Below are positions 3,568 through 44,661 of a stretch of DNA of 64,000 nt, piece after piece (within the stretch, counting starts at the first letter, position 1; each line of letters starts with the position of its first letter). Position numbers and translations under genes: made by a program. Origin of the DNA: Gimesia sp. (GTDB lineage Bacteria > Planctomycetota > Planctomycetia > Planctomycetales > Planctomycetaceae); the NCBI RefSeq assembly GCF_040219335.1, contig NZ_JAVJSQ010000021.1, positions 1 to 64,000 of the forward strand. The letters run 5' to 3'. Under the pieces are notes generated by a model. The model saw nothing but the letters and a program-made list of their open reading frames with translations, ran no database searches and was not told the DNA's origin.

Positions 3568-5733
3568 TCATTTCTCGCTGAGCAGATGATCTGCTTGACT
3601 GCTCTTGTGGGAATAATTCACCTGATGCGGCAGCATTTCCTGATTGCCCTTCATGTCTTCTGCTGAGGTGACGAGGCGCAGGTTGCCGGACTCGGGAACA
3701 GGCAGGACGATTTCCCACTCCTGGAAGTTGGTTGCTGTGGGACGCACCGGTTGCTCATTCACTTTGACCTGTTTCACGTCGTAATTATCTGAGGTGACGC
3801 CGCGAACCAGGATTTGCCCGGATTGCTGCGGTTCGATGTGAGTGATGACCGTGACGGGGGGTAAATCGTCAATGGGTTCCAGGTCGAAGTAGTCTTTGAG
3901 CGAGTACGCATAGTCGGAGTCGCCGGCGGCACGCGGGAAGAAGACGGTGGTGTTGACTTCAGAAAAATTCAGACGCCGATACTCGTGCCGGTGCATGACA
4001 CAACGCCATAATCCATAAGCACAATCGTGCAAGTCGAAATCTTCAATGCGAACACAGGGAGTCCCGCAGTGGAAGGCCCAGTGTGAATCCCAGACTTTAG
4101 TATTCCGCATCAGAAACGGATGCTGGTAGTCGGGGCCGATCCCTTCGACATCACTGTCTTCCTTGTTGAATCTTCCCCCGGCAAAACCGCCGAGGTTGAT
4201 GGCAAACAGTCGCTGGCAGTGTGCTTCGTTTCCATCGAAGCGCACAAAGGGCAGAGTGCGAATATCGACTTCTTTCATGGAACCATCTTTTTGCAGGATG
4301 GGCAGGGTCGGGTTGAAATCTTTCCGTTCGACCACTTCAAAACGGAACCCGTCTTCATCACATTCGGCGGCGACGTTTCTGGTAAAGGTATTCAGGCTGT
4401 TAGCCCACCAGAACCCGGAGCCCAGGTTTAAATCGTAAGGCAGCACCTGCTTGGGAAGTGGTTTACCGCCCAGTGCCTGGACCGCCAGATTGCGGTCAAA
4501 GATATTATAAACTTCGGTTCCATCTTCCAGGAAAAATCCGTGACCGACACTTTTGTAACCGACGCAATCCTTGACCACCAGGTACTGGGTTCCGTGGACC
4601 GTGATCCAGCGGTTATGACTGTCCCAGACCGAGAGCCCCGTCAGACTGCTGCCACGCATGGAATCGCCGACAAGGTGATAGTGGATGGGGTATTTTCCGA
4701 GCGTGTCTTTTTTCCCCAGATGACGAAACTCGGCATAGCTGATGCTGCCCTTGGAATCAGCGTGATACATCGTGTGTCCGCGAATCCCTTCCGGGTCGGC
4801 TGACTCGACAATCACGTTACGGGAAAGGTTAGCCACTTCGGCCCGATATTCACCACTTCCCAGATGATCAAACTCCAGCGGTTTGTCGAAGCTGACGATC
4901 TGCCACTTCGAATCAAAGCCGCCCCAGTGCCGCATTTTGGTGATGACTCTTTCTTCCGTCGTGGGATTATCTGCGACACTGTTATCGTCGCCTGATTTTC
5001 GGTGCCGGGTGCCGATGTAGCCAAACTGTCTGGTGGTGCCCGAAAGAATGATGCGGTCTCCGACTTTCCAGCCGGGAAGGGGATACGGCATCACGACCCG
5101 CGCTTCACCCACTTTGGCAGTCTGATAAGGGAGCTTGACCCAGGTACGTTCCAGGGGAGCACCATGAATATCCATGCGACCGCCGCAGCAAATGATGGCC
5201 GGGCAGGTCTCTTTGTTCATGCCCTCAATGTAGTGCAGGCGGATGAGAGCCGTATGTTTCGCGGGGATGGGGGAATCAGGACGTCCCACTTCGAGGGTGG
5301 GGGCAGGACGCGCGAACGAAAATGCGTTCTTCGCGTTTTTTCCGTCCGACTCAACGACCATCTGACAATCAAAGCCTTCTTCACAGTAGTGATCGAGGTC
5401 TTCGATCCGAATCAGCCCGACTTCGAGTCGGGTATTGCGATCGGAAGCGAATTTGAGTGTTCCCGAGATCTGGATACCACGAATGACGTCTTTCGAATCC
5501 ACATCATAGACGATCTGGTGATCACGCTGAATTAAGACCTGGGCACCCGCGCCAGGGACTTTGCCTCCCTGCCAGGTTTCAGCGGAAGACCATGGTCCGC
5601 TTTGAGCGGAATGAATGACTTTCATTTCTGCATGGTTATGCGTTTCATGTGCCAGCAGGGGCGAAGCTCCGATGACCAGACAGGTAAGTCCAGCGAGGAA
5701 ATGCACGAGCAGATTTGATGGGAAATGATGCAT
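3568..5733 (-). CDS. Secreted G8-domain protein with parallel beta-helix
   Basis: A 721-residue protein with a signal peptide (residues 1-28). Residues ~37-150 match the G8 domain (WSSAETWQGGKVPGAG, then VLIQRDHQIVYD and LEVGLIRIED), named for eight conserved glycines and found in CEMIP/KIAA1199 and PKHD1. The rest is rich in Asn, His and Gly with rung-like repeats (NRWITVHGTQYLVVKDCVG), as in right-handed beta-helix proteins that bind or cut polysaccharides. It is the last gene of a leftward group with a DUF1559 protein and a lipoprotein, 63 nt after the latter, so it is probably exported and acts on an extracellular glycan. The substrate cannot be told. Confidence 0.8.
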   Translation of the reverse strand: MHHFPSNLLVHFLAGLTCLVIGASPLLAHETHNHAEMKVIHSAQSGPWSSAETWQGGKVPGAGAQVLIQRDHQIVYDVDSKDVIRGIQISGTLKFASDRNTRLEVGLIRIEDLDHYCEEGFDCQMVVESDGKNAKNAFSFARPAPTLEVGRPDSPIPAKHTALIRLHYIEGMNKETCPAIICCGGRMDIHGAPLERTWVKLPYQTAKVGEARVVMPYPLPGWKVGDRIILSGTTRQFGYIGTRHRKSGDDNSVADNPTTEERVITKMRHWGGFDSKWQIVSFDKPLEFDHLGSGEYRAEVANLSRNVIVESADPEGIRGHTMYHADSKGSISYAEFRHLGKKDTLGKYPIHYHLVGDSMRGSSLTGLSVWDSHNRWITVHGTQYLVVKDCVGYKSVGHGFFLEDGTEVYNIFDRNLAVQALGGKPLPKQVLPYDLNLGSGFWWANSLNTFTRNVAAECDEDGFRFEVVERKDFNPTLPILQKDGSMKEVDIRTLPFVRFDGNEAHCQRLFAINLGGFAGGRFNKEDSDVEGIGPDYQHPFLMRNTKVWDSHWAFHCGTPCVRIEDFDLHDCAYGLWRCVMHRHEYRRLNFSEVNTTVFFPRAAGDSDYAYSLKDYFDLEPIDDLPPVTVITHIEPQQSGQILVRGVTSDNYDVKQVKVNEQPVRPTATNFQEWEIVLPVPESGNLRLVTSAEDMKGNQEMLPHQVNYSHKSSQADHLLSEK

Positions 5734-28857: not shown

Positions 28858-31800
28858 TCAGTCGCTGCCAGTCAGGGTAAAAGCCGCCCAGAAGAAGGGG
28901 TGGGCGGCTCCGTTACGTTTCTGACGTGAGTCAATCCGGTTGAGTTGCGCCTGCCGTAATGCTTCTGATTTGGTTTTTCCGGCAGCGAGATGTTCAAAGA
29001 AGTCCTTCATTAAAAAGGCGGTCTGGCGATCTTCGATTTTCCAGAGGTTGGCCACAACACTGTTGACGCCGGCAAGCTGAAATGACTGCCGGAGCCCTGC
29101 AACGCCTTCTCCGTTATTGATCTCACCCAGGGCCGTATCGCAGGCACTCATCACCACCAGGTCGGTGTGTTCCAGGTCCGTTTCCAGAATTTCCGCTCCC
29201 GTCAACACCCCTGCCGAACCTGACCTGGATTGATTGAATCCTGCGAAGAGCAGACCTGACCTCAGCAGCGGGTTATTCATTTCTGAGCGAGAGTCGGAAT
29301 CGAATGTGAACTCACTGGCGGTGACATCATTGTCGCTGGGCAGGAAGATTCCATGTGTGGTCAGCACCATGATTTCAGGTGAAGATGCTGCTTTAACCGA
29401 TTGTTCTGTCGCCTGCTTTCCGGTCAGCACAACAGGCGGACGTCCACAAAGTTGCTCAATGGCAGGTGTGATACTGGCGGCTTCTGCAGCAGCGAACTTC
29501 AGACGCGGCACAGGACTGAATTTATTGAAAATTGCGGATCCTCGTGTTTCGATCGCTGGGGGAGCAGGGGACTGGTCAGCGACTGAGATGTTGGTTTCGA
29601 AATCCGGATCCGCAACAATCAGCGGTGCATTAGCAGAGGCACTTTCGTCTGATGGAAGCAGATCCCGTCCACTGACAACCAGGCGGAGCTGATGTGCTTT
29701 GATTAACGGTTCTCCTTTTAAGGGAAGTGCTGCCCAGGGGACGAGCCAGAGGGAGGCATCGGGGCTGATGATGATATTTCGGGACTGTTTCACACTGTCC
29801 GGCAGAGGGGACCAGAGCTTCTGACTGAGCTGCTGGAGCGCAGCGTTACAGGCTTCTTTCGCTTTTGCTTCCCCCTGCGATACGATTAGAGTAACGCTGC
29901 TTTGCAGTTCTTGTGAAGCGGCGTTGATCTGGGCGTCAATGGGGCCCGCTGGGCCGATGTCGATGATTTGCACCGGTTCCTCCCCGGCCGAGGTGGTCCA
30001 GGCTACATAGCGGGATTCTTTGCTCTGATCATCGCTGAGCTCTGCGGGGATCTGCAGTCGGATGAAGTCAATCAAGACCGTCTCCGGTTTTAAGGTCTCT
30101 TGTACGGACTGATGTGTTACCCAGGCCTGCCCAGACAGCGCCTGATCCTCTTTCAAATTCAATTCGGATTTGAGACGTGTAATACGATCATTGATTTCTG
30201 TATTCCGGGGAACCTGGCTGCCGGCAGCAGCTGCGGCCTGAATTCCTGTAATCGCTGCATCAAGCTTCTCCAGGCGTCCTGTCTGGGCTGCGATTCGGTG
30301 CAGGCGATGTTGTAACGCCAGCGCTTCATGCGAGGTTGCTTTTCCGTTGATCATCCACTCTGCAGATTGTTTTATGGATGGAGCCCCTGTCTGTTGCTGC
30401 CAGGCCATGGCCAGGGACTGGTGCAGAGAGGGGCGGTCCTTCCGATTCAAGTAACTTAACTGATGCGTATCACTCAGGAATGGCAGCTGATCCCTGATAT
30501 GGCGGCGCGATAATCGGCGTGCCTTGTCGCTGGATTCCAATGCCGCATCAACCTGACCGGACACATATTGATATTGCGCCAAATCGGAAAATGCCTGGAC
30601 GGTCAGGGGATGTGCGCCCAGGTCCTGGCTGGCGATTTCACTGACTTCCTGCGCCAGGGACAATGCTTGTGCCAGTTCGTTTCGTTGCTGGTGGATCCGT
30701 GCTATCAGTAAGCGTAATTGTGAGACCTGCTGGTGTCTGAGTCCCTGAATGGGCATCCGTTTCTTCAATGCCTGTTCGCAGTTTTCGAGGGCAGCATCAA
30801 GTTGCCCCTGTTTCAGGTAAACGCGGGCAATGGTGCTGAGTGTGACAGCGGTATGTAGTTTACGGTTGTGTTGTCCGAAACCTTTTAATGCGCGTTGCAG
30901 ATGAGGCAGCGCTTGTGTCAGCTTGTCTCGGTGAAGCAGGTCTTCGCCTAAGCGGCGGTAGGCATCTGCTGCTCCCATGGAAAACTTCTGCGGACTGTTC
31001 TGATAGAGCTTCACACTCCGTTCGAGATAATCGGAGGCGCTGGGATCGCCAATCGCGCCCAGTCCAAATCCGAGTGCACTGTAATAGGACGCGACCGTAA
31101 GGGAATCGGTTCCGCCCGCTGCTTCGGCGATCTCGACGCCTTTGCGAAAGTGAGCCAGCGCACTGGCGTGATCTCCCGCTTGAGAACAGAGGTAACCAAG
31201 CTGGGAATGTGTGAGAGCGGTTTGCAGATTGTCTGCAGGGAGTTGTGCGGCACGAATTGCCAGTGCCCGTTCCAGCAAAGTTCTGCCCCGGGTTGGTTCT
31301 CCTAACAGAAATTGATTCCAGCCGGCTTCATGCAATAAAGTGGCTGTGTTGAGATGATCGGTTCCATAATGCTGTTCATACAGAGGCAGGGCCTGCTCCC
31401 ACTCAGCAGCAGCTTCCCGTCGCTTGTCCTGTGAGAGCAGGACCTGTCCCAGTAGATTATGTGTCAAACCCCGGGCCTGGCCACTCATCTGATCGGCTGG
31501 TAATTCCAGAATCTTTCGATACAGGCGCGCCGACTCAGCGGAGCGATTGAGACGTTGTGCGATTGCTGCCTGGTCTGACATGACCAGAAAGGCCGTTTCG
31601 GTATTTGTCAACTGATTCTCCTCAACCAGTTTCCACGTTTTCGCAGCATACTTTTGTGCCAGGGGATTCTTGCCTGCCCCGATCAGAGAAGTCACGATTT
31701 CACGATGTTTCCTGATATTTTCGGCAGGGGCAGTCTGGTAAATCTTGTCGTAAAGATCAAACAGTCGCTGATAGTTGTTTAAGGCATAGTCTTGATCGAT

Positions 31801-32460
31801 ATCGAGAGCGAAGCGGGCTGCCAGATGATAGGCGCCCGCCAGGGCAGGGCTGTTGGGAGCGAAGAGGGCTTCCTGGGTGGCGACTGCTGCATCAATCTGC
31901 TTACGCCCTTCTGCTGGCTGTCCCGTCATGGCCGTCAGCCAGCCGACCGCGATGAGTTCATTGAGCGTCTGTGGATGTTCGTCGCCGTAGAGTCGGCGAT
32001 GTTCCTCAACGGACTCTCGGGCGGCTTTGAGAGCTGACTGATACTGTTTCTTACTGGCCAGCTTTCTCACCTGGGTGGCTGCAGCGTCGGCCTGTCGTTT
32101 CCATTGTTTTGCCTGTTGGGGATCCAGTTGACGCACCTGCAAATGAGTTCCCTTTGTCCAGCCCCGCTTCGAGGAACCAGGAATTTTGATCAGCAGCCAG
32201 CCTTGATTTTCCTGGAAGCCCCAGACGGTGCTACCCTGTTGCAGACGGGTAACGACCTGTTTGCCTTCGTAGACATCCGCGGCACCATCGATCACCACAT
32301 ATTGTTGAACGGTCGGCTTTTTCTCCTGAGCCAGCAGTGAAACGGGCAAAGCCAGCAGGAGTGCCTGGCAGAGAATTCCCAGAAGTAACGTGTTGTGGGA
32401 GAGAGTTGTCATCGCTTCGATCTTTTCTTTAAGGAGATCTATCGGGCTGATGAGTTTCAT
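28858..32460 (-). CDS. Secreted SH3-TPR-CHAT protease
   Basis: A 1200-residue exported protein. An N-terminal signal segment (best from Met17, position 32412, an alternative start) is followed by a bacterial SH3-like domain (~48-112, YVVIDGAADVYEGKQVV and QENQGWLLIKI), many TPR repeats (~120-720) and a C-terminal CHAT caspase-like domain (~770-1195). The CHAT core has ISPDASLWLVPWAALPL, catalytic H1036 in VLTTHGIF and C1107 in VVMSACDTALG, and the terminal block RNGAAHPFFWAAFTLTG. CHAT is a clan CD cysteine protease fold. It is the last gene of the leftward cluster; a signal peptide implies action outside the cytoplasm. Confidence 0.85.
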   Translation of the reverse strand: MKLISPIDLLKEKIEAMTTLSHNTLLLGILCQALLLALPVSLLAQEKKPTVQQYVVIDGAADVYEGKQVVTRLQQGSTVWGFQENQGWLLIKIPGSSKRGWTKGTHLQVRQLDPQQAKQWKRQADAAATQVRKLASKKQYQSALKAARESVEEHRRLYGDEHPQTLNELIAVGWLTAMTGQPAEGRKQIDAAVATQEALFAPNSPALAGAYHLAARFALDIDQDYALNNYQRLFDLYDKIYQTAPAENIRKHREIVTSLIGAGKNPLAQKYAAKTWKLVEENQLTNTETAFLVMSDQAAIAQRLNRSAESARLYRKILELPADQMSGQARGLTHNLLGQVLLSQDKRREAAAEWEQALPLYEQHYGTDHLNTATLLHEAGWNQFLLGEPTRGRTLLERALAIRAAQLPADNLQTALTHSQLGYLCSQAGDHASALAHFRKGVEIAEAAGGTDSLTVASYYSALGFGLGAIGDPSASDYLERSVKLYQNSPQKFSMGAADAYRRLGEDLLHRDKLTQALPHLQRALKGFGQHNRKLHTAVTLSTIARVYLKQGQLDAALENCEQALKKRMPIQGLRHQQVSQLRLLIARIHQQRNELAQALSLAQEVSEIASQDLGAHPLTVQAFSDLAQYQYVSGQVDAALESSDKARRLSRRHIRDQLPFLSDTHQLSYLNRKDRPSLHQSLAMAWQQQTGAPSIKQSAEWMINGKATSHEALALQHRLHRIAAQTGRLEKLDAAITGIQAAAAAGSQVPRNTEINDRITRLKSELNLKEDQALSGQAWVTHQSVQETLKPETVLIDFIRLQIPAELSDDQSKESRYVAWTTSAGEEPVQIIDIGPAGPIDAQINAASQELQSSVTLIVSQGEAKAKEACNAALQQLSQKLWSPLPDSVKQSRNIIISPDASLWLVPWAALPLKGEPLIKAHQLRLVVSGRDLLPSDESASANAPLIVADPDFETNISVADQSPAPPAIETRGSAIFNKFSPVPRLKFAAAEAASITPAIEQLCGRPPVVLTGKQATEQSVKAASSPEIMVLTTHGIFLPSDNDVTASEFTFDSDSRSEMNNPLLRSGLLFAGFNQSRSGSAGVLTGAEILETDLEHTDLVVMSACDTALGEINNGEGVAGLRQSFQLAGVNSVVANLWKIEDRQTAFLMKDFFEHLAAGKTKSEALRQAQLNRIDSRQKRNGAAHPFFWAAFTLTGSD

Positions 32461-32512: not shown

Positions 32513-34033
32513 TTATTCTGCTGGTGGCTCGTCTCGGGGCGTTGCGTTTAACGCGGCGAGATTCTGCTGAGCCTGAATGGTTGCCCGATGATCGGCCCCC
32601 AGTGCTTTCTGGTTAATTTTCAGCGATTGAGAGAGCAGTGGTTCTGCCTCTGATTTCATTCCCTGCATCCGATACAGGTTTCCCAGTCTTCCGAGTGCGA
32701 CAGCGGTAGCAGGATGTTCTGCGCCCCTGGTTTTTTGCGTGATTTCCAGAGCTTCCTTGAAGTAAGGCAGTGCCTGGGAATACTCTTGCCTGGCAAAGTA
32801 ATAGTTTCCCAGACTGTTGAGCGAATAGAGCAGGTCGGGATGCTGTTCATCCAGAGCATCGCGGCGGATTTCGAGGTTTTTTAACATGAGTTGCTCAGCC
32901 TGGGCGTATTTGTCCAAATGATCATAGATCATGACCAGGTTATCGCGCAGGATTGTAGTTTGCAGATGATTTTCTCCAGTCTCGCTGGAAACGAGTTCCA
33001 GGCACTTAAGGAAGATCGGTTCTGCTTTCGCATATTTTTCCTGCATCACGTAAATTCGTCCCCGCTCATGTAAGGCATTGACCGTCTCGGGATGCGTTTC
33101 TCCCAGGGATTTTTTTCGGATCGCATGACACTGTTGCATATGTTGTTCTGCCTGGGGATAAGCCTGCATCTGCAGATAGAGTTTCGCCATTTTGTTATGC
33201 ACAACTGACGTTCGGTAATGATCTTTCCCGTAGTTCTGAGTCATCACAGACAGGATCTGCCGATAAAGCGTTTCTGCCTGTTTATATTTTTCCATCGCTT
33301 CGTAGAGGGACCCCAGATTAATCATCGCGGAGACGGTTCCCTGGTGCTTTGGCCCCAGTTGGGTGCGGGCCAGGTTGAGGCTTTCCTTGAGCAGTGGCTC
33401 AGCCTTGGAATAGCGTTTCAAAGTTACGTATAGCGATCCCAGGTTATTCAGTGAAGCCGCTGTTTCAGGATGAGCATTTCCGAAGACCTGGCGACGAATC
33501 TCCAGGCATTCTTCCGTGTAAGAAGTGGCTTTTTCCAGGTCCTGCAGTTCGTGGTAGGCGACTGCGGGAAAGGACATGACGGATGAGGTATCTGGATGAT
33601 ATTTTCCGTGGACCGCTTTTACCTGTTCCAGAGCCTGTAGTCCGAGTTGCACAGCCTGTTTGCGATCCCCGCTGGAATACAGCTTCATGGCTGCGGAGTA
33701 TGTCTCTTGCGCTGACTTGATTTTCTGCATTTGCTCTGTGGTTAACTGAATCGGGCTGGCCTGCTCGCGGGAGATCCAGCCGTGCTGCTGGGATTTTGGA
33801 TCCTTGACCTCATACCAGTTTTCAGTCGCCGCAAACGCCCAGAACCGGTTTCCCTGTTTGACTGTTCTTAAAACTTTCGCATCCTGACTGCGATCGACTT
33901 TGATTTCTGCCTCGGGAGTGTCGACGATCAGCATCGGCCCTTCCGCAGACAGTGCAGGGCGAGTCAGCACAACACACAAAAGTCCGATCAAATAACCTGT
34001 ATGAATCAGTCTGGTTGTTTTCGTGGCTTGCAT
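32513..34033 (-). CDS. Secreted SH3-TPR protein
   Basis: A 506-residue protein with a signal peptide (MQATKTTRLIHTGYLIGLLC, ending near SAEG), an SH3-like domain (~30-95, KVDRSQDAKVLRTVKQGNRFWAF, ENWYEVKD) and eight or nine kinesin-light-chain-type TPRs (~105-490) with the repeated theme HPETAASLNNLGSLY and YAKAEPIFLKCLEL. There is no CHAT domain, so it may be a scaffold or substrate-binding partner of the neighbouring proteases, whose SH3 and TPR parts it resembles. Start 34033 has GAGG 5 nt upstream; the frame extends to 34102 without a ribosome site. Confidence 0.8.
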   Translation of the reverse strand: MQATKTTRLIHTGYLIGLLCVVLTRPALSAEGPMLIVDTPEAEIKVDRSQDAKVLRTVKQGNRFWAFAATENWYEVKDPKSQQHGWISREQASPIQLTTEQMQKIKSAQETYSAAMKLYSSGDRKQAVQLGLQALEQVKAVHGKYHPDTSSVMSFPAVAYHELQDLEKATSYTEECLEIRRQVFGNAHPETAASLNNLGSLYVTLKRYSKAEPLLKESLNLARTQLGPKHQGTVSAMINLGSLYEAMEKYKQAETLYRQILSVMTQNYGKDHYRTSVVHNKMAKLYLQMQAYPQAEQHMQQCHAIRKKSLGETHPETVNALHERGRIYVMQEKYAKAEPIFLKCLELVSSETGENHLQTTILRDNLVMIYDHLDKYAQAEQLMLKNLEIRRDALDEQHPDLLYSLNSLGNYYFARQEYSQALPYFKEALEITQKTRGAEHPATAVALGRLGNLYRMQGMKSEAEPLLSQSLKINQKALGADHRATIQAQQNLAALNATPRDEPPAE

Positions 34034-34102
34034 GATAACCTCGCATTCTGAGAGTGTGTTTTCAGGAGACGAACTCGGTGAGATGACTCCGCAGCATCTC
34101 AA

Positions 34103-35482
34103 TCAGGGGCGATAATAGGTGATCGTGACCGACATGATGGGCGTGGGATCAGCCTGGAACTTCACTGTTTTGACTTTGTTATCCGTTTGTGCGCCCTGCA
34201 CGATCAACCCACCGCGGGTTTCCGGTTGTTTTTTTCCGGCCAGGCGAATTTGAGACTTCAAGGCTCCCAGATTTGCAGGTTGCTCTTCAGGCTGAACTCC
34301 TCGCAGCATGGCAACCAGGTCCTGTTCATCTTCATTTAAAATCGTGGGTTGGGGTTTGGCTTGCTGGAGTTCCTGAAAGACGGTCATCTGGATCTGGCCG
34401 GTGTGCCGTCCGTAGTCCATGGCACGTCTGGCCGATTCTGCTTCCGAAAGAACCTGAAACTGCTCAGCGGTGTTGTCATCTTCCATCTGATACCCCTTGA
34501 CCACGGTCCGTGTGTGATCGGGGGAGAGAATCCATTTGTTGCAGTCGAGGTCCCGCTTGACCTGACGGTACAATGTATTTTCGCCGTTGACTTTGAGCAC
34601 GATCCCCAGACGCCCTTTGGCTGAGCTGTTACGAATCAGTGCCATTTCGACTTTCTGGCCCTCTTCCGGTTCAGCAACAAACGCCTGGCCGTCTTTCATT
34701 GTGACGGGCACCTTCCGGCCGTCATAAAAGATTTCAAGTTTTACCGGAGCAGCGGCGTCCATTAGCGGGAAAGTGTCCTGCTGCTTTTTCACGCGGGCTG
34801 CTGTGCTCAGGATCTGCTGTTGTTTCTGTTTCTGCTGGTCGTTGAAGGATAGCTGTGTCGAACCGCCGTCAAAGGCGCCTCGCAGGAAGAAGCTTTCTCC
34901 GATACCTCCGATTGACTCGGCGTCCAGGTCGACATCAAAGACTTCGCAGGCCCGCTCTAATTTGCCGTTTGCTTTAACAAAACAGAGAATGCCGACCGAA
35001 GCACGCTGATTATCATCATGGACCAAAACGATGCCTGTCAGAAAAGCATCGGCTGCCTTTTTTTCTTTGCCCCATGCCAGTTTGAATTCAGGGCCAAAAA
35101 ATACCTGGCGCCCTGCTTCCGTTAAATGATCAGCGTCTTTGAGTTCAGCGGCTTGTGCGCTCGCATCTTTGATGATATTGAGCTGGCGAGCTTCATCAAA
35201 TGGATTTGCCAGGATCAATCCGACTTCCAGGCGGTCTGCCAGCAACGAATTCAGGGCACCCGCACTGGCGGTGATTTTCTCACCCGGTTTTTTGACACGG
35301 AACTTTAAAACTCCGACGGTTTTGAGTTGGCGCTGATTGAGATAGTCGATGACCTGGGGGATCTGTTTCTGGAGTCCCTGTTGAATGGTCTGGGCCTGGC
35401 TCATCCCCGGCACGACCATGATTGTTATCGACGCGATCAGGAGTGTGAATGTCATTTTCATGATGCGGACCTGGTTATTCAT
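34103..35482 (-). CDS. Secreted protein of unknown function in CHAT cluster (LpoB/CsgG-like N-terminus?)
   Basis: A 459-residue protein with a signal peptide (residues 8-31, ending MSQAQ). Residues ~33-190 (QLKTVGVLKFRVKKPGEK, SLLADRLEVGLILANPFDEA, DAFLTGIVLVHDD) have the alternating pattern of LpoB/CsgG/TolB-N-type domains, a tentative match by eye. Residues ~235-330 (APVKLEIFYDGRKVPV, EEGQKVEMALIRNSSAKGRLGIVLKVNG) look like the DUF4384-type beta domain often found with caspase-like peptidases. An ECF-type promoter lies 61 nt upstream. It is the first gene of the second transcription unit of the cluster. Confidence 0.6.
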   Translation of the reverse strand: MNNQVRIMKMTFTLLIASITIMVVPGMSQAQTIQQGLQKQIPQVIDYLNQRQLKTVGVLKFRVKKPGEKITASAGALNSLLADRLEVGLILANPFDEARQLNIIKDASAQAAELKDADHLTEAGRQVFFGPEFKLAWGKEKKAADAFLTGIVLVHDDNQRASVGILCFVKANGKLERACEVFDVDLDAESIGGIGESFFLRGAFDGGSTQLSFNDQQKQKQQQILSTAARVKKQQDTFPLMDAAAPVKLEIFYDGRKVPVTMKDGQAFVAEPEEGQKVEMALIRNSSAKGRLGIVLKVNGENTLYRQVKRDLDCNKWILSPDHTRTVVKGYQMEDDNTAEQFQVLSEAESARRAMDYGRHTGQIQMTVFQELQQAKPQPTILNEDEQDLVAMLRGVQPEEQPANLGALKSQIRLAGKKQPETRGGLIVQGAQTDNKVKTVKFQADPTPIMSVTITYYRP

Positions 35483-35773: not shown

Positions 35774-38700
35774 TCAACGACTTTCGTTTTTACCTGTGTG
35801 TGTAAACGCGGCCCAGAAGAATGGATGAGCGGCTCCATTCCGATCGCGGCGGGCCTGGATGCGTTTGAGTTGCGCCTGCCGGAGTGCGGTCGATTTATTC
35901 ATTCCCTGGGCGAGATTGGAAAAGTATTCTTCCATCAACAGGGCTGTTTCCTGATCGGGGATACTCCAGAGTGATGCGACGACGGATTCTGCACCGGCCA
36001 GTTGGAAGGCCTGCCGGAGTCCTGCAACACCTTCCCCCGAACGGATTTCACCAACGCCGGTTTCGCAGGCACTGAGTACGACCAGACGCGTTCCACGCAG
36101 GTCGGTACTGATGATTTCCAGACCGGTCAATACGCCATCATCTTTCTGTTTTCTGAGTGCTTCCGGTCGGTTGTTGCACCCCGCCAGCATCAGGCCACAA
36201 CGGAGCAGGGGGTTGACATCTCCCTCTTGATTGGTCGGATAGGTCTGCACCATCCGCGACATCTGATCCAGGGCGGCTGTCCGCAGGGCTGCCAGGTCGG
36301 GATCGATGGGCTCTGTCTGTTCGGTTGTGTCTTTTTGCTCTGGCGTAGATGGCTTCGTTGAAGCGGATTCTTTTTTGCTACTACTTGGCTTCTTGAGCTT
36401 CAAGCCGGTCGCGTCCATCTGTTTCTGATAATGGTCCCGTTGCTCGGGATCGTTCAATTTATCGAAAACCTGAAAGAGGCGGTAATAGGAACCGAACATC
36501 AGTTTTTTATTATCCGGCGAGATTTTTTCCCGGATTTCAACTGCGCGTTGCAGCTCGGTGGCCGCGTCCTGATAGCGTTTGCGGCGTTCCAGAAACTGAC
36601 CGAGCAGGCTATGGGCCAGAGCAGTCCGTTCGGATTCCGCCCCATAGACTTTTATTCGCAGGGCCAGATTGTCCCGAAAACGTTTTTCTGCTTCGTCAAA
36701 CTGTTGGTTCCGTTCCAGCAGCCGGGCCATCTTCAAGTCGGCAGCAATCGTATTGATGTTTTCCAGTCCGTATTTCTCTTTGTAATATTTGATCTGATCT
36801 TCTCTGGCTTCACAGGCGAGGGCGTAGTCTGCTGATTTTTCGGCAGCGGTGATTAACAGGGAGCGGATAGTATGCACGGCTTTCTCATTGGGGCCTCGGA
36901 CCCGGGCTCCCATGCGCCAGGCCTGTTCATAAGAGTTTGTTTGCGTCTGGTAATCTTTCAGGGAACCACAGAGGCTGGCCAGGTTTTTGAAAGCGTACAT
37001 GGTTTTGGTGCTGGGGCCGTCGTTCAATAATCTGTAATCCAGCTGAAATTCATAGTAGGGGCGCGCTTCCTCATAACGTTTCAGGGCCCTCAGTATCCGG
37101 CCTGAAAGTCGGGCTGAGTTGAAGGTGGCAATGCCATTGAGGCCCTGGATTTCGTTACAGATTTCAAAGGCCCATTGGGCGGGGACCAGGGCTTTCTGAT
37201 ACTCTTTGGCCTTGTAGGATTTGTTAGCAGCATTATAAATTCTGGCTGCATGGTAGAGTGCTTTTTTCTGTTCCAGGCTGACGGCAGCTTCATCGGGCAG
37301 GAAGAATCCATGCGTGCTCAAGACGAGTACTTCGGGGCTGTGGATCGATTTGAAAGCGGCCTCCGTAGCCTGGGCTTCGGTCAACAGACGTGGGGGACGC
37401 GTGTATTTGCTGATGGGGGGCGCAATTCTCAAGGCTTCCTGGGCCGTGCCGGGCAGCAGACTGACCGGCCCCAGTTGTAAGCCGGACTCTGGCTGCTCGG
37501 TCTGACTGAGTCCGAACAGATTATAATCCGGATTGGCAAAGATGACCGGGGCCGTCACGCCTGAGCTGGAACCTTGGCGATCTGCCAGAAGTTCCCTTCC
37601 GGAGACGACAAAGCGAAATTCGAACTGTTCGACGGCGAAACGGTCTTTCTCCAAGGGGAGAGCCGCCCAGGGAACCAGCCAGAGCGAGGCGTCCGGAGAT
37701 AGAATGACCTGCTGCACGTTGGTTAAATGCGGGAGCAGAGGTTTCAGTGTCTGCTGGAACAGGGCCTGCAGTCGTTTTTGAGTCGCCGCGGTCGCCTGTG
37801 ATTCGCCGGTCTGCAGGGTTTGAGCGGCCCCTTTCTGAATGGATTGCAGCCCCGTCCGTAGAGTGGCTTCGATCTCCGAGGCAGAGCCCAGGTCAATGGT
37901 TTGGATGCGGCCCTTGCCAGTGGGGGGAATGATCCAGGCGGCGTAGCGGTGTTTTTCCGATTGAGCACCATCTGCTTCGATTGTGTAGGGAGTGATGCGC
38001 ACAAATTCCACCAGTACTGAGTCTGAGGGCAGTTGTGCCCGAATCTGTTTCAGGGTGACCCATTCGCTTCGATTGAGTTCCGCATCGGCAAGACCCAGCT
38101 GCTGGATCAGTGTCTGTTCCTGGCGATTCAGCGCATCCAGCCGAGCCTGTTTCTGCTGTTCGTTGAGATCGGATTTTAATGCGAGGGACGCCAGTTCGCG
38201 TCGAATGGCAAACAGGTTTTCCGCAACCGAGCGGGCGGCTCCTTTGAATTGTCTTAATAGACGCTCGTGGCTGGAGAGGGTTTCCTGGACCAGGGCTTTG
38301 CGGTTGAGAATCGCTTCCAGACTTTTTTCCATCAGGTACTCGTTATCACGCTGCGACCACATGATGCCCAGTGCCTGTTGGTACTGCCAGGCATCATAGC
38401 CGGTGAGAAAACGGAGCTGCTCCTTCTGGCTCAAGCCGGGCAGCACTTTGTCGGTAAAGCGTTTTGAAATGCGGCGTTGACGATCGAACGCGTCCGCAGC
38501 CTCATTCCAGTTTCCGGAATGCGCTTCCACCACCGCCAGCATGCCCAGGACCTGGGCCAGCTCGCGGTCATCCGAATTCTTTCTGTCTGCAGTCTGTCCC
38601 AGCTGCTGGTAAATCTTAAGAAGTTCCCGCAAGCTGCGCGCTGCGACTTCCCGGTTGCCATTCCTGTATTCCTGGGAGGCCAGCTGATACTGAAGCATTA

Positions 38701-39856
38701 ACGTCTGGGGGTGATGTAAGCCCTGGGTGCGTTGGGATGCGGCTAATGCTTCCCGGGTGAGTTGAATCGAAGTCTGGTCATCGCCGGTCAGGAGGGCGAT
38801 GGCGGAAGAGGTTTTGATATACAGCGGGTGATCTTTGCTGAACTTGCGCTGCACCAGCGGCATGAGTTCTTTGCTCAGTTTGATGGCCTGTTCCCATTCC
38901 CCGCTCTGTTGTAACAATAACATCAACTCATATTGGACTTCGATGTTGTCGGCGCTTTCTCCACGGTCCGCTTTGCGATTTGTGAGGATGATTTCTTCAT
39001 ATAGTTTGCGGGCTCCGGAAACATCTTCCAGTACATACAACATCCCCGCCAGTTGCCGTTTGCCTGAGAGCGTGTCTTTATGTGAAGGACCAAATGCTTT
39101 TGTACGCAGCTCAACCGATCGTTCGATCAGAATGCGTGCCTGGGTGATATCCCCCTGGCGTTCATACATGACTCCCAGGTTGGCCAGAACAGTGGCCTTA
39201 CCTTCGATATCTTCCGGGAAGTGGCGTTCGCGAAGTTTACTGACCCGTTCCAGAGTCGTTCGTGCGTCCCGGTATTGTGCGGCCCGGAACTGAATTGCGG
39301 AGAGCATTTCCAGGGCGCGCACCGTATCGAGATGGTCTTCGCCTTTCCAGCGTTCCAGTACGGGTAAAGTCTCTTTCAGAATGCGGATGCTTTTGAGGTA
39401 CTCGCCTTTTTTATCCAGTTCGATCCCGTAGTTCGCCAAAGCTGCTGCGGTGTCGGGGTGATTCGATCCGTAGACCTGCTGCAGGTTCTGCCAGACTTTC
39501 TGCTGGGCCTGATGTCTTTCAGCGGAATAGGTCGTCGATTTGATGTTCTCGATCTGCTTGAGTAGTTGAATTACTTCTTTCAGGAGTCGTTTCTGCTGAT
39601 CGGTTTGTTTCGGGGTTTGATGATCGGCCAGGGGGATCCAGCCTTTTTCGTTGAACTCGGGATGCTTGACCCAGGTCCATTTGCCCTCGGTTTTGAAGGC
39701 CCAGACTGTCTGTCCCGGCTGCAGGGCAGCGATGTTCCGGTTTTCCACCCGGAGGCTGGTGGGCTTTGTGATCTCCACCAGCTGTTCGGCTGAGGCAGAC
39801 TGGAGCAGCATTGTTCCAATCCAAATCCCGAAGATAAGTCTCGAGAGCAATTTCAT
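35774..39856 (-). CDS. Secreted SH3-TPR-CHAT protease with a TPR array inside the CHAT domain
   Basis: A 1360-residue exported protein (signal peptide 1-23). SH3-like domain ~25-80, TPRs ~100-470, then the CHAT domain begins (~600-870: WVTLKQIRAQLPSDSVLVEF, LSPDASLWLVPWAALPL) with catalytic H849 in VLSTHGFF. Instead of the usual short link, about 340 residues follow (~865-1205), including more TPR-like helices (HSLLGQFLERRKRYQDAATE) and a Lys/Ser/Thr-rich stretch, before the domain resumes (NPLLRCGLMLAGC) with catalytic C1264 in VLSACETGVGEIRSGEG and ends RNGAAHPFFWAAFTHTG. The His-Cys distance is 415 residues against 71 in the paralog at 28858. It is second in its transcription unit, 93 bp after the cytochrome gene. 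Confidence 0.85.
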   Translation of the reverse strand: MKLLSRLIFGIWIGTMLLQSASAEQLVEITKPTSLRVENRNIAALQPGQTVWAFKTEGKWTWVKHPEFNEKGWIPLADHQTPKQTDQQKRLLKEVIQLLKQIENIKSTTYSAERHQAQQKVWQNLQQVYGSNHPDTAAALANYGIELDKKGEYLKSIRILKETLPVLERWKGEDHLDTVRALEMLSAIQFRAAQYRDARTTLERVSKLRERHFPEDIEGKATVLANLGVMYERQGDITQARILIERSVELRTKAFGPSHKDTLSGKRQLAGMLYVLEDVSGARKLYEEIILTNRKADRGESADNIEVQYELMLLLQQSGEWEQAIKLSKELMPLVQRKFSKDHPLYIKTSSAIALLTGDDQTSIQLTREALAASQRTQGLHHPQTLMLQYQLASQEYRNGNREVAARSLRELLKIYQQLGQTADRKNSDDRELAQVLGMLAVVEAHSGNWNEAADAFDRQRRISKRFTDKVLPGLSQKEQLRFLTGYDAWQYQQALGIMWSQRDNEYLMEKSLEAILNRKALVQETLSSHERLLRQFKGAARSVAENLFAIRRELASLALKSDLNEQQKQARLDALNRQEQTLIQQLGLADAELNRSEWVTLKQIRAQLPSDSVLVEFVRITPYTIEADGAQSEKHRYAAWIIPPTGKGRIQTIDLGSASEIEATLRTGLQSIQKGAAQTLQTGESQATAATQKRLQALFQQTLKPLLPHLTNVQQVILSPDASLWLVPWAALPLEKDRFAVEQFEFRFVVSGRELLADRQGSSSGVTAPVIFANPDYNLFGLSQTEQPESGLQLGPVSLLPGTAQEALRIAPPISKYTRPPRLLTEAQATEAAFKSIHSPEVLVLSTHGFFLPDEAAVSLEQKKALYHAARIYNAANKSYKAKEYQKALVPAQWAFEICNEIQGLNGIATFNSARLSGRILRALKRYEEARPYYEFQLDYRLLNDGPSTKTMYAFKNLASLCGSLKDYQTQTNSYEQAWRMGARVRGPNEKAVHTIRSLLITAAEKSADYALACEAREDQIKYYKEKYGLENINTIAADLKMARLLERNQQFDEAEKRFRDNLALRIKVYGAESERTALAHSLLGQFLERRKRYQDAATELQRAVEIREKISPDNKKLMFGSYYRLFQVFDKLNDPEQRDHYQKQMDATGLKLKKPSSSKKESASTKPSTPEQKDTTEQTEPIDPDLAALRTAALDQMSRMVQTYPTNQEGDVNPLLRCGLMLAGCNNRPEALRKQKDDGVLTGLEIISTDLRGTRLVVLSACETGVGEIRSGEGVAGLRQAFQLAGAESVVASLWSIPDQETALLMEEYFSNLAQGMNKSTALRQAQLKRIQARRDRNGAAHPFFWAAFTHTGKNESR

Positions 39857-39949: not shown

Positions 39950-42148
39950 TTACCTGGTTTCAATACTGATTGTTTTCTTAATCAGCTGGCTGGGGTTATT
40001 TTTGAGCCGACGCTGGTCGTCTGCGAAATTGTAGAAATCGTGAACGAAGCGATCGTTGACATTCTTTCCCCGCAGCAAAACCCCGGGACTGAATTGTTGG
40101 GGGCTGGCAAAGACGGTAATGAATTCGGTACCCAGTTGCGGTTGAATTTTAATCGAACCGGTTTCCGGGAAACGATATACGCTGCCATTTTTTAAGGGCA
40201 GCACCTGTTTGGTTAAAGCGACTTTGCGACCACGGGCGCTGGTGCCTACCAGTTCGATAAACAGATCGACGCCGGTTTCATTTTTGATGTTGATCACCAT
40301 CTCGTCGCCGGGTGAGAACAGATTGCTTTTCTGGTTAGTGCTCACTTTCAGGTTGCGGGCCAGTCCTTCGGCTAAATGGTCCGGACGAGTCAGACCATCG
40401 ACGGCAGCGATGGGAGTGCCGATACCCAGCTGGCGTACGACCCGGTCGTAATAGTCCTCCCAGGTATCGCGGCGGATCACACCGCCGGTGGATAAGCCTG
40501 CCAGTCCCAGTTGTGTGAACTGGGGAAGTTTGAATACCGCATTCAACTGCCCCGGTTCTTTGAGGCCCAGTTCGCCGGCGGCCTGGGTGAGTGTCAGTGG
40601 CGCGTCGATGAATTTACGGGTGGTGGCGGTTAAGGGTTCATTTTTCACGTTGCCCCCCAGAGCTGCCTGCATGGCGGACTGGAAGCGTGCTTCATCCTTA
40701 TCGAGCAGCTGGTCCATTTCCTGCTTGGGGATGTAGAGGCGTAGAATGTCTCGTGTATTCAGGCCGGTGTTATTCGGGAGTGCCTGAAATGCAGGGCGGA
40801 TGTTGTCCGAGAAACGTTTCATTCCCCGGTCATGACAGCGCATGCAGGCCAGCCCGTTACGGACGACTTTGTCTTCCGAGAATTTGTCGGTGACGATTGT
40901 AGTGGGAGCTTCCAGGATGCGGTTGCCTGCGTTGTCGGTGACCAGATAGGCCTGCAGTCCGTTGGGCAGATTCCAGATCATCTCGCCGCCGGCATAATGG
41001 AAATCGAGCGGGTCGGCGAACATGTTCTGCAGACCTTTGCTGGTCTCGAAATCAAAGCTTTTCCAGTAAGCACCGTCTCGAGAAGGGTGCCGTTCGACAA
41101 TGCGATTGTTGCGCGAAACTCCGGAGAGCGTCATGCCCGCCCGGCTGGCAATAAAGTTCTGCAGGTTTGCTTCACTGTCGACGCCGATCAGCTGTTCGAG
41201 CTGATTCAATTCATGCGGCAGTTCGAGAAGATCTTCATAGAGTGGCGATTGGGTGGCGACGCTGATCAACCAGTCAATGCGGACATAGGGTACCGGTCTG
41301 ATCAGACCAGCTGGCTGGAGGTAGACCTCCCGGAGTTGCTCGAATGTTTCTGCGTTTTCATAGGCGATGCCATACGGGTATTCGAGCAGGATCATGTCGA
41401 ATTTGTCGACGTTGGTATTGCCGGGCAGCTTGTGAGGTGAAACGGGGGTGACGACCGATTCATGCCAGCCCAGTTTGCGAATATCAACGGCGAAGATCGT
41501 ATTAGTATCCGGATCGACGGCAATCGGTTTGACGATGTCGGGCTGCCAGGACAGGTGGTTCAACGCTTTGGTCAGTGCAAATTGCTGTTCGCGCAGTTCT
41601 TCTGCGGTCGCACCTGCGGTCAACAGGTGGTTGCTGCTGAAGAAACGCAGAAAGGGACGGTCAGAGCGGGGCGTGGCCTCCACGAATTTCAGAATCTGCT
41701 TTAAGACAAATTCGGTGCCGATGGTATTGGCAAACGCGGGATCCTGACTCGCTTGAGCAGGGACGGCAACATCTTCGGGAAAAGCAGGGGCTTTGGCTTC
41801 GATCCATTTGCGGACGATTTCAATTTCTCCCGCACTGAGCGGAGGCCGCGGTGCTTCCGGCATGCGGAAGTCTTCATCATCGGAAGCGATGTAATCGTAG
41901 AGCACGGATTCATCGACATTGCCCGGCACGACGGAGCCTGCTGCACCGACAAACGTGCTCAGGTCGAGAATATTGATGTCTGCTTCCCGACGCGTGTCTC
42001 CGTGACATTCCAGGCAGCGTGTGCGGAAAATCTGTTTGACTTCCGCTGACAGGTTTTCTTCCTGTGCCCTGACCGTCATCGTTAAACATGACAAAGATAT
42101 GGCAATTAGAGACAGTAATTTCCACGGGTTTGACCGGCTGCGGCTCAT
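39950..42148 (-). CDS. Exported cytochrome protein with DUF4384-like C-terminus, first gene of CHAT cluster
   Basis: A 732-residue protein with signal peptide (1-29) and a planctomycete cytochrome domain with CLECH (C45, C48, H49) and the usual SVVPGNVDESVLYDYI and RMPEAPRPPLS. A second heme motif CMRCHDRGMKRF (C435, C438, H439) suggests two hemes. The last ~130 residues (NLFSPGDEMVINIKNETGVD, KIQPQLGTEFITVFAS) resemble DUF4384, a beta domain commonly fused to or neighbouring caspase-like peptidases. The central part is unrecognised. An ECF-type promoter lies 56 nt upstream. It could report redox state or supply electrons to the extracytoplasmic protease system; that role is inference. Confidence 0.75.
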   Translation of the reverse strand: MSRSRSNPWKLLSLIAISLSCLTMTVRAQEENLSAEVKQIFRTRCLECHGDTRREADINILDLSTFVGAAGSVVPGNVDESVLYDYIASDDEDFRMPEAPRPPLSAGEIEIVRKWIEAKAPAFPEDVAVPAQASQDPAFANTIGTEFVLKQILKFVEATPRSDRPFLRFFSSNHLLTAGATAEELREQQFALTKALNHLSWQPDIVKPIAVDPDTNTIFAVDIRKLGWHESVVTPVSPHKLPGNTNVDKFDMILLEYPYGIAYENAETFEQLREVYLQPAGLIRPVPYVRIDWLISVATQSPLYEDLLELPHELNQLEQLIGVDSEANLQNFIASRAGMTLSGVSRNNRIVERHPSRDGAYWKSFDFETSKGLQNMFADPLDFHYAGGEMIWNLPNGLQAYLVTDNAGNRILEAPTTIVTDKFSEDKVVRNGLACMRCHDRGMKRFSDNIRPAFQALPNNTGLNTRDILRLYIPKQEMDQLLDKDEARFQSAMQAALGGNVKNEPLTATTRKFIDAPLTLTQAAGELGLKEPGQLNAVFKLPQFTQLGLAGLSTGGVIRRDTWEDYYDRVVRQLGIGTPIAAVDGLTRPDHLAEGLARNLKVSTNQKSNLFSPGDEMVINIKNETGVDLFIELVGTSARGRKVALTKQVLPLKNGSVYRFPETGSIKIQPQLGTEFITVFASPQQFSPGVLLRGKNVNDRFVHDFYNFADDQRRLKNNPSQLIKKTISIETR

Positions 42149-42816: not shown

Positions 42817-43086
42817 ATGTTTAATATGAAACTTCTCAAAACCGCTTTACTCTGTACCGCTGGCCTGGTACCGCTTTCAGCCGGGCAGGTTGCCCAAGCC
42901 CGTTCCTACGCACAACCGCCGGTGCGGTGCGTGATGAAGCCGGTTGTGACCTACCAGTTTCAGAAGCGACGTTTTACGCATTTTGTCACACGGTACGACC
43001 ACTTTGGCAGACCGTACCGGGTCAGGCAGGTTTGTTACAAAACCGTCCGCGTTCCCGTGACGACCTGGGTTCGCGTGTGTTACTAG
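42817..43086 (+). CDS. Small secreted basic protein
   Basis: An 89-residue protein with signal peptide (MFNMKLLKTALLCTAGLVPL, cleavage near AQA-RS) and a basic, Tyr/Arg/Val-rich mature part containing FTHFVTRYDHFGRPYRVRQVCY and three cysteines, a pattern seen in short planctomycete exported proteins of unknown role. AGGAG lies 8 nt upstream of the ATG. It sits 62 bp after the acidic protein and 110 bp before the sigma gene. Confidence 0.7.
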   Translation: MFNMKLLKTALLCTAGLVPLSAGQVAQARSYAQPPVRCVMKPVVTYQFQKRRFTHFVTRYDHFGRPYRVRQVCYKTVRVPVTTWVRVCY

Positions 43087-43196
43087 ACTGTCGTCTGTTC
43101 CGGGGATGTCTGTACCCATTGCCAGAGACATCCCTTTACCGGGGAAGCGGGCGGAATCTGCTTGAGATCCAGAACGTTCCCGGCTATCGTAGGGGA

Positions 43197-43783
43197 ATGT
43201 CCACATGCGAAAACCTCGAATCCCGATCAGATGAAAAACTGGCGGACCTGATTAAAGGTCAGGGAGAGACGTTCGCGCAGAAACAGGAAGCAGAAGCCGC
43301 GTTTAATCTGTTGTATGGGCGACATGCCTCAGTTCTGCTGGGATTCCTGAAGGTACGCTGCAGTTCGCATATCGTCGCAGGGGACATTCCCAGGAGACCT
43401 GGTTACGGGCCTGGCAGAAAATACCGGAGTACTTTGACGGCTCCCATTTCCGTGGCTGGTTATTTCAGATTGCGAAGAATCTGTTGCTGGACGAATTTCG
43501 AAAAAAGAAGATGACCTCACTTTCTGAAGGGATGAATGCGCCTGAAATGCAGGATGCCGCTCAGGCTTTCATCAATCAGGAAGAGAAACAGCAGTTGCAA
43601 AATTGTCTGAGTCAACTGGATGACTCCCGGCAGCAGATCGTTCGTTTGCGGCTATCAGGGCAGAGTCATCGCGAAATCAGCGATCAGCTGCAGATCGACT
43701 ACACAACGGTTCAAACCCGTTTCCATCGAGCCAAACAGTTCCTGGAAGAGTGCGTCCAGTCGACACGGAAGGAGACTGCCTGA
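43197..43783 (+). pseudogene. ECF sigma factor gene interrupted by a -1 frameshift
   Basis: The sequence encodes one ECF sigma factor in two frames. From the ATG at 43197 one frame gives KLADLIKGQGETFAQKQEAE, then AAFNLLYGRHASVLLGFLKV up to about 43380; the continuation QETWLRAWQKIPEYFDGSHF, then RGWLFQIAKNLLLDEFRKKK (sigma2) and sigma4 (CLSQLDDSRQQIVRLRLSGQ, then SHREISDQLQIDYTTVQTRFHRAKQFLEE) lies in another frame to 43783. Adding one G to the GGGG run at 43380-43383 restores a continuous ~196-residue protein. It may be a sequencing or homopolymer error, a real mutation or phase variation. The stop overlaps the next gene's start (TGATG), as in sigma/anti-sigma pairs. Confidence 0.8.
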
Positions 43784-44661
43784 TGCTGACCGCTTTCAAT
43801 TTACCTGAAGAGACGGATGAACTGCGAGCCTGGCTCGATGGCATACTGCTTCAGCCGGAGCTGATGTCGGTTGTTTCTCAATTAGCGGCCGTGTATGCAG
43901 CAGAGAACGAGGCGCAGCCGAGCCTGGATGACGTTTTACAGAATCAGCGGGAGTCCGTGTTAGAGCAGGGCTGTCAGGTGCTGTCACCACTTCAGATACA
44001 GCAGTTGTTAACCCATCCGGAGCTGCTGCTCGAACTGCAGGAGCAACTCTTTCTGGAGGGAGGGGCTTTCTGGCAGGAGCGGATTGCGGCGCTGACGGAT
44101 GAGACGGAAGTCTCTCGCGGGCAGGACTGGCTGAAGCAGCAGATCACAGAACCGCCTGCGACCGAGATGCAAAATGTAACAACCTCGCCTGCGTTCCAGA
44201 CTGTCTCCTATCGAAAAATTGGAATCATTGGTTTCGTCTCAGCGGCTTTGGTACTGGTGGCTCTGTTTCTGAATCAGGAGCCGGATGCTCCCCAGGGCTG
44301 GGGTTGGAATCGACCAGGCGCATTGACGGCAGATGTGCCACCGGCTGAATATCTCAATCAACTGGCCGATTCCGCGGAAGAGTGGTTTAACAAGCCGACG
44401 GAGACCAAAGCGGCTCTGGAAACACGCTTGAAACAGTTTCGTGCGGGGTGTGAGACTTTGATCAAGGCACCGCATCCACAGTTATCCCAGGACGATCGAA
44501 CCTGGCTGGTCGAACGCTGCCAGGCATGGGCCGGGAAACTGGATGAACAGATCACTGCTTTGAACGAGGGGGCCGATCTGCAATCTGCCGATAAGGCGGC
44601 TGATGCCCTGATCCGAAAACTGGTCAAAGCCCTGCGCACGCGTGCGAATACCGTCGGTTAA
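43783..44661 (+). CDS. Single-pass membrane protein, probable anti-sigma factor
   Basis: A 292-residue protein starting at the ATG that overlaps the sigma stop codon, with AGGAG 8 nt upstream. The N-terminal ~155 residues are acidic, helical and presumably cytoplasmic; one transmembrane helix spans ~158-172 (IGIIGFVSAALVLVALFL); the C-terminal ~115 residues (EYLNQLADSAEEWFNKPTE, KTLIKA-like helices) would be outside. There is no zinc-binding anti-sigma motif that I can see, so the assignment rests on gene order, coupling and topology. It would hold the neighbouring ECF factor until an envelope signal arrives. Confidence 0.6.
   Translation: MLTAFNLPEETDELRAWLDGILLQPELMSVVSQLAAVYAAENEAQPSLDDVLQNQRESVLEQGCQVLSPLQIQQLLTHPELLLELQEQLFLEGGAFWQERIAALTDETEVSRGQDWLKQQITEPPATEMQNVTTSPAFQTVSYRKIGIIGFVSAALVLVALFLNQEPDAPQGWGWNRPGALTADVPPAEYLNQLADSAEEWFNKPTETKAALETRLKQFRAGCETLIKAPHPQLSQDDRTWLVERCQAWAGKLDEQITALNEGADLQSADKAADALIRKLVKALRTRANTVG

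Follow-up and report, generated by a model that had tools for sequence, protein, structure and literature searches.

Control of caspase-fold proteases usually lies with domains that precede or follow the catalytic core, or with cleavage of a linker. Separase, the eukaryotic cohesin protease, is a CHAT-like protease with a helical-repeat region, and the TPR-CHAT proteases (Pfam PF12770) combine N-terminal tetratricopeptide repeats (TPRs) with a C-terminal CHAT domain. One of the latter is Csx29 of Craspase, which works with Cas7-11 and RNA. According to excerpts of PMC10028731 and PMC9729208, target RNA alters the TPR region of Csx29, with a rearrangement of the catalytic His and Cys; in the former, the substrate cut by Csx29, Csx30, inhibits an extracytoplasmic function (ECF)-like sigma factor, which ties a CHAT protease to a sigma factor. 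The same excerpts place the two catalytic residues 42-43 positions apart in Craspase (H585/C627 and H615/C658; PMC9729208, PMC10028731) and 26 apart in human separase (H2003/C2029; PMC9729208). Here we describe a CHAT protein of Gimesia sp., encoded in the 64,000 nucleotides that open contig NZ_JAVJSQ010000021.1 (hereafter the window). It shares with the TPR-CHAT proteases the fold family, the His and Cys motifs, the N-terminal TPRs and the C-terminal CHAT domain, but its protease domain is interrupted by a second TPR array, which separates the catalytic His from the Cys. In Craspase, in contrast, the TPRs lie outside the CHAT domain; moreover the window protein has, by eye, a signal peptide, and a Pfam scan of 12 neighbouring proteins found no Cas7-11/gRAMP. 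Searches of the open-access literature yielded no description of a domain between CHAT catalytic residues, nor of the gene set reported here.

We give a probability of about one half to the reading that the insert serves for docking or sensing next to the active site of a CHAT protease that works outside the cytoplasm as part of a sigma-factor module. In the mechanism proposed, a functional extracytoplasmic CHAT cysteine protease would have gained a TPR domain once, in the hypervariable loop that connects the His strand with the stretch before the Cys. The array would sit beside the active-site cleft, held close to the His at one end and, at the other, tethered through a flexible linker to the C-terminal half. 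There it would most likely bind and recruit a protein partner or substrate, and it may also help to order the active site. The enzyme most likely works in a module with an ECF sigma factor, a single-transmembrane (TM) protein and a secreted 459-aa protein.

Anatomy of the interrupted CHAT domain

The protein of 1360 aa is encoded by one open reading frame (35774..39856, minus strand, as are all its parts given below), with orthologs in six other genomes. Residues 1-23 (39788..39856; basic, hydrophobic, with an ASA-like end) were read by eye as a signal peptide; such an N-terminus is clear here and also found in several relatives, and from it the protein is probably secreted. An N-terminal TPR array follows at about residues 120-480 (38417..39499), recognized by Pfam TPR_12 and TPR_10 and as helices in the model. 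The CHAT N-terminal half, residues 590-855 (37292..38089), ends just past the catalytic H849 (codon 37310..37312). It gives way to the inserted TPR array, residues 857-1145 (36422..37288), and to a low-complexity linker, residues 1146-1210 (36227..36421), after which the CHAT C-terminal half occupies residues 1211-1360 (35777..36226) with the catalytic C1264 (codon 36065..36067).

Pfam CHAT scored 224.8 bits against a cut-off of 24, and two stretches of the one frame span profile positions 1-288: positions 1-168 correspond to 37268-37780 of the window and positions 156-288 to 35792-36217. Within the insert the best TPR_12 stretch lies at residues 1037-1111, and TPR_2 exceeds its cut-off at 1079-1109. 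In an alignment of 14 sequences the columns of H849 and C1264 are invariant, and the insert occupies the most variable loop of the CHAT domain, exactly between the motifs STHGFFLxD and NPLLRCGL, with its surroundings and both catalytic motifs intact. Judged by profile and alignment, both halves belong to a single CHAT domain. The earlier note on this DNA had placed a TPR array between the His and Cys of a single CHAT domain, 415 residues apart, with CHAT sequence resuming cleanly behind it, and all of this is borne out. So is its comparison with the neighbouring uninserted paralog P0002 (1200 aa, 28858..32460, minus strand), in which H1036 and C1107 are 71 residues apart, with 27 residues from His to the PLLR motif. 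Ten uninserted relatives from 8 loci, a set in which the further locus L074 gave no row, have a His-Cys spacing of 60-84 and 11-35 residues from His to PLLR, whereas this last distance is 366 in the window protein and 369 and 368 in its kin from the loci L065 and L066.

The earlier note had also raised that the frame might join two separate genes by an assembly error. No direct support was found for such an assembly or frame artefact, although a nearby sigma factor gene is broken in the window and single-base errors are thus conceivable. The same join is present in six other genomes, including the single-contig assemblies G005 and G007 and the only 56% identical G013, and this explanation is practically excluded.

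Two AlphaFold2 models were made, one of residues 590-1360 (771 aa, from a 14-row alignment) and one of 1200 residues. The structure prediction suggested by the earlier note gives the insert as a confident TPR superhelix: the 771-aa model has 14 helices over residues 856-1149, with ten-residue blocks mostly at pLDDT 88-98, and the insert helices of the 1200-residue model reach pLDDT 62-96. The first inserted helix starts about seven residues past H849. At the other end, the core of the linker falls mostly below pLDDT 50 in both models, as expected of a disordered segment. The strands and helices follow the order expected for CHAT, with pTM of 0.53 and 0.58 and a junction of low confidence.

The best 50 of 1591 Foldseek matches of the 771-aa model are TPR proteins only, among them the peptide-binding proteins kinesin light chain and LGN, and no CHAT chain is among these 50. 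With the 1200-residue model Foldseek retrieved the Craspase TPR-CHAT chain 7y8t_B (E 8.0e-7, TM 0.44 by target, 703 columns). The family profile searched against the PDB gave weak matches to CHAT chains in the C-terminal half, namely 8rot_B (E 0.0054) and TPR-CHAT chains (E 0.024-0.13), and separase was matched weakly in both searches, by 9hn0_B with Foldseek (TM 0.13 by target) and by 5fc2_B with the profile (E 0.21).

An array that begins near the His and is loosely tied at its far end could serve docking or gating. The second possibility, an allosteric gate, is the one that the earlier note had put forward, with a ligand of the inserted repeats opening or closing the active site; such a ligand would shift the His strand or a lid and so switch catalysis on or off. 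A gate gains from the fact that the first TPR helix lies only some seven residues behind H849, and allostery from TPR to CHAT is established in Csx29/TPR-CHAT according to the excerpts of PMC10028731 and PMC9729208. However, the Csx29 TPRs precede the CHAT domain and do not lie within it, and the long disordered linker opposite, together with the low-confidence junction on the His side, speaks for a tether over a lever. We regard a gate as possible but rather unlikely.

Conservation and descent of the insert

The inserted CHAT protein is present in seven of the 17 genomes of the genus. It is complete in five (G000, G005, G006, G007 and G013) and lies on broken contigs in two, where the G012 copy runs from ahead of the His through the protein end and the G015 copy, on two contigs, includes the C-terminal portion of the insert. 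L065 is the G013 copy and L066 the G012 copy, each counted once. Compared with the window protein, the G013 copy is 51% identical in the inserted TPRs, 48% in the N-terminal TPRs, 57% in the CHAT N-terminal half, 47% in the linker and 87% in the C-terminal half; this last half reaches 87-93% identity in G013, G012 and G015.

Across the six pairs of the four closest genomes the inserted TPRs have a dN/dS of 0.056-0.112, similar to the 0.032-0.117 of the N-terminal TPRs; values are 0.065-0.280 for the linker and 0.026-0.083 for the CHAT C-terminal half. The inserted TPR part is under purifying selection. This bears on the explanation that the insert is a tolerated passenger, an array contributing little in an exposed loop that accepts domains. 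This loop indeed varies more than any other part of the CHAT domain, sister proteins such as that of L068 do without the insert, and in G013 the insert is less well conserved than the C-terminal half. Yet selection acts on it much as on the N-terminal TPRs, and it is kept whole in G013 even though the N-terminal TPRs and the CHAT N-terminal half are there only 48-57% identical. Furthermore it was lost along with its neighbours: G009 retains a decayed fragment of the C-terminal half of the inserted CHAT (L087, around 4631-5085), readable in more than one frame, and kin of the sigma factor, the TM protein or the 459-aa protein were not found in an 18-kb stretch of this genome (L126). We therefore think that a mere passenger is quite improbable.

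Caspases are two-chain enzymes after cleavage, and the linker could likewise be a processing site, cut by the protein itself or by another protease to give a two-chain enzyme with the TPR array as a pro-region or anchor. The linker is long and of low complexity, and no part of the insert is less conserved (44-54% identity in G013, G012 and G015), as a processed segment might be, but its length varies by only a few residues among the carriers whose sequence includes it. We consider processing very unlikely.

When the insert columns are left out of the tree, the inserted proteins group in one clade (100/100) nested within the uninserted planctomycete CHATs, and therefore one insertion event, in the ancestor of the present carriers, is the most likely origin. 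The uninserted protein of L068 is the nearest to this clade by path, although that join (85/88) is not strongly supported. The search for other insert-bearing CHATs that the earlier note advised thus led to six further genomes of the genus, and outside the genus no insert of full length was found in 170 genomes of the order and 392 of the phylum, the samples being confined to this phylum, with cyanobacteria and other phyla outside them. At full length the insert profile matched six of the 170 order genomes, plus G015 in part, and in the phylum scan it matched four of 392 (with at most five candidates scored per genome). Weaker matches of this profile fall on TPR arrays at other places, including several at the N-terminus of CHAT reading frames.

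Concerning the source of the array, its best single-stretch match among 12 compared proteins (49.3 bits) is a neighbouring 529-aa SH3-like/TPR protein (32513..34102, minus strand), beginning just behind the SH3-like part of the latter; the N-terminal TPRs of the window protein itself score 11.5 bits. By whole-protein score L067 is higher, with 151 bits over 7 stretches. The 529-aa protein may be the donor, TPR likeness being too general to serve as proof. In GC content the TPR insert (0.504) is below the other segments of the protein (0.536-0.582), a difference insufficient to claim acquisition by transfer.

Domains in the loops of other CHAT proteases

A domain between the catalytic residues was also found in a second planctomycete TPR-CHAT protein, of 1400 aa, in G050, a genome of the family (L076, 1071-5270, minus strand). 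Here H1130 and C1295 are 165 residues apart and a PDZ domain (Pfam PDZ, 25.6 bits, cut-off 23.2) occupies residues 1147-1219, in the same His-Cys loop as the TPR insert. The two cases are alike in having a docking domain at this place and differ in that this one is PDZ and not TPR, occurs in one genome of our samples and is not closely related to the TPR insert. The CHAT of G126, which is the closest to that of G050 by its C-terminal half, gives a continuous CHAT match with no space for a PDZ domain. In a CHAT scan of 150 genomes the split matches within one frame were, among the matches listed, those of the genus proteins and of G050. With the G050 region as query, no other PDZ in the His-Cys loop was found by matches covering the PDZ in 392 phylum and 170 family genomes, a search that an unlike PDZ would escape.

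Seven CHAT matches were wider than 1280 nt. Six of them have a His-Cys spacing of 58-86 and the seventh (L079) was read by eye; in all seven the additional length is upstream of the His. Five of the seven have a PDZ-like match in another loop, ahead of the His, above the curated cut-off in three of those five. As read from domain matches and motif positions, recognition domains have entered the loops of this protease more than once, and a domain between CHAT catalytic residues in a further lineage, the PDZ of G050, is new here. The type of domain suggests that the TPR insert binds a partner, and a PDZ in the same loop together with the flexible linker agrees with a tethered docking domain no less well than with a gate.

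A recognition domain between the catalytic residues, with a PDZ in the same loop elsewhere, would show that the core tolerates insertion at the rim of the active site. If this is true, evolution uses the loop at this rim to change the partners of the protease, which would be of interest for work on caspase-fold proteases and on bacterial signalling.

The PDZ-like domains in the loop ahead of the catalytic His, lying within CHAT domains of other planctomycetes, were observed in L079-L083. Separately, the N-terminal part of the uninserted CHAT of L068 (2362-7308, plus strand) contains, by eye, a second cassette of the SH3-like plus TPR kind, and TPR cassettes therefore seem to multiply in this CHAT family.

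The sigma-factor gene set

Beside the inserted CHAT gene lies the gene for the 459-aa secreted protein (34103..35482, minus strand), which matches no family in Pfam or NCBIfam. On the plus strand are an ECF sigma factor gene (43182..43783) and, with its start overlapping this gene, a 303-aa protein (43750..44661) with one TM helix at about residues 157-175, seen as a hydropathy peak. The 459-aa and 303-aa proteins are both present in all seven carriers, and neither was found at E 1e-5 in the other 10 genomes of the genus. The sigma factor gene stands directly ahead of the TM gene in the seven carriers, and its copies in G005 and G013 match Sigma70 region 2 (E 1.2e-14 and 9.4e-16) and region 4, r4_2 (E 1e-11 and 1.2e-12). 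In the window, two frames are needed to read this gene, which lies in a single frame in G005, G006, G007, G012, G013 and G015; in the G015 copy the only stop is ahead of the first ATG.

In an rpoB tree, from which G012 is absent as it gave no rpoB match, the carriers do not form one clade, {G013, G015} and {G000, G005, G006, G007} being separated by non-carriers; the CHAT, 459-aa and TM/sigma genes therefore come and go together. Their order varies, the 459-aa gene being directly before the CHAT gene in G013 and after it in the window.

Taken from gene order and topology, the 303-aa protein is a putative anti-sigma factor, or else a candidate substrate of the protease. The precedent of Csx29 and Csx30, with a CHAT gene here accompanied by genes for an ECF sigma factor and a TM protein, invites us to think of a similar scheme outside the cytoplasm. 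We are tempted to suggest, as a tentative and rather doubtful extension, that the secreted CHAT senses or docks a periplasmic partner through its TPR insert and cuts the periplasmic part of the TM protein, thereby freeing the ECF sigma factor, and that the His-Cys loop is a general slot in which recognition domains (TPR, PDZ) retarget the same core. Protease activity, export, the docking function and any link to the TM protein are all inferred, unlike the anatomy of the protein, its conservation, the selection on the insert and the gene association, which are shown. If the sigma link is true, this would be a second CHAT protease wired to transcription after Csx29-Csx30, this time an extracytoplasmic one, and a bacterial family for probing how separase-like proteases become regulated.

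Several points weigh against a docking module in a protease of this gene set. Both the residues right behind the His (850-858) and some stretches of the C-terminal half are modelled with low confidence, the pTM values being the modest ones given above, and therefore the models neither support nor oppose the halves closing around the insert. The alignment with 7y8t_B, being of about 700 columns, cannot cross the insert to the Cys half and therefore backs only the layout of the TPRs and the first half. The 303-aa TM protein has no Pfam or NCBIfam family and no known anti-sigma domain. The uninserted CHAT of L068 is flanked by homologs of the 459-aa protein (54%) and of the PSCyt1 protein described below (54%), and the insert is therefore not essential to that neighbourhood. 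Finally, the TM protein occurs in 31 of 150 family genomes, four of these being carriers of the genus, and in the 20 TM/sigma neighbourhoods taken from 19 of the 27 non-genus genomes with a match no CHAT was found.

A sigma factor reading frame lies at or in the TM gene in 19 of these 20 neighbourhoods. The sigma/TM pair as a general partner of CHAT is unsupported. A C14-like caspase occurs in four of the 20, as a raw count, and among the loci of CHAT relatives other than L065 the pair is found in L071 only, where a C14-like caspase gene adjoins it.

The pair itself, of an ECF sigma factor and a TM protein, the latter having a single helix and a WGWN-P-G motif past it, recurs in planctomycetes (19 of 20 loci, among L158-L177) and is apparently undescribed in Pfam and NCBIfam. 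Two further genes were noted in the window. A 732-aa PSCyt1 (planctomycete cytochrome C) protein (39950..42148, minus strand; Pfam PF07635, E 5.8e-9) adjoins the inserted CHAT and was not found in the stretches of G013 and G015 examined. Upstream of the sigma factor gene, a small protein of 89 aa with a signal-like start (42817..43086, plus strand) keeps its position among relatives, with a similar open reading frame in L065, L122, L123, L124, L125 and L127.

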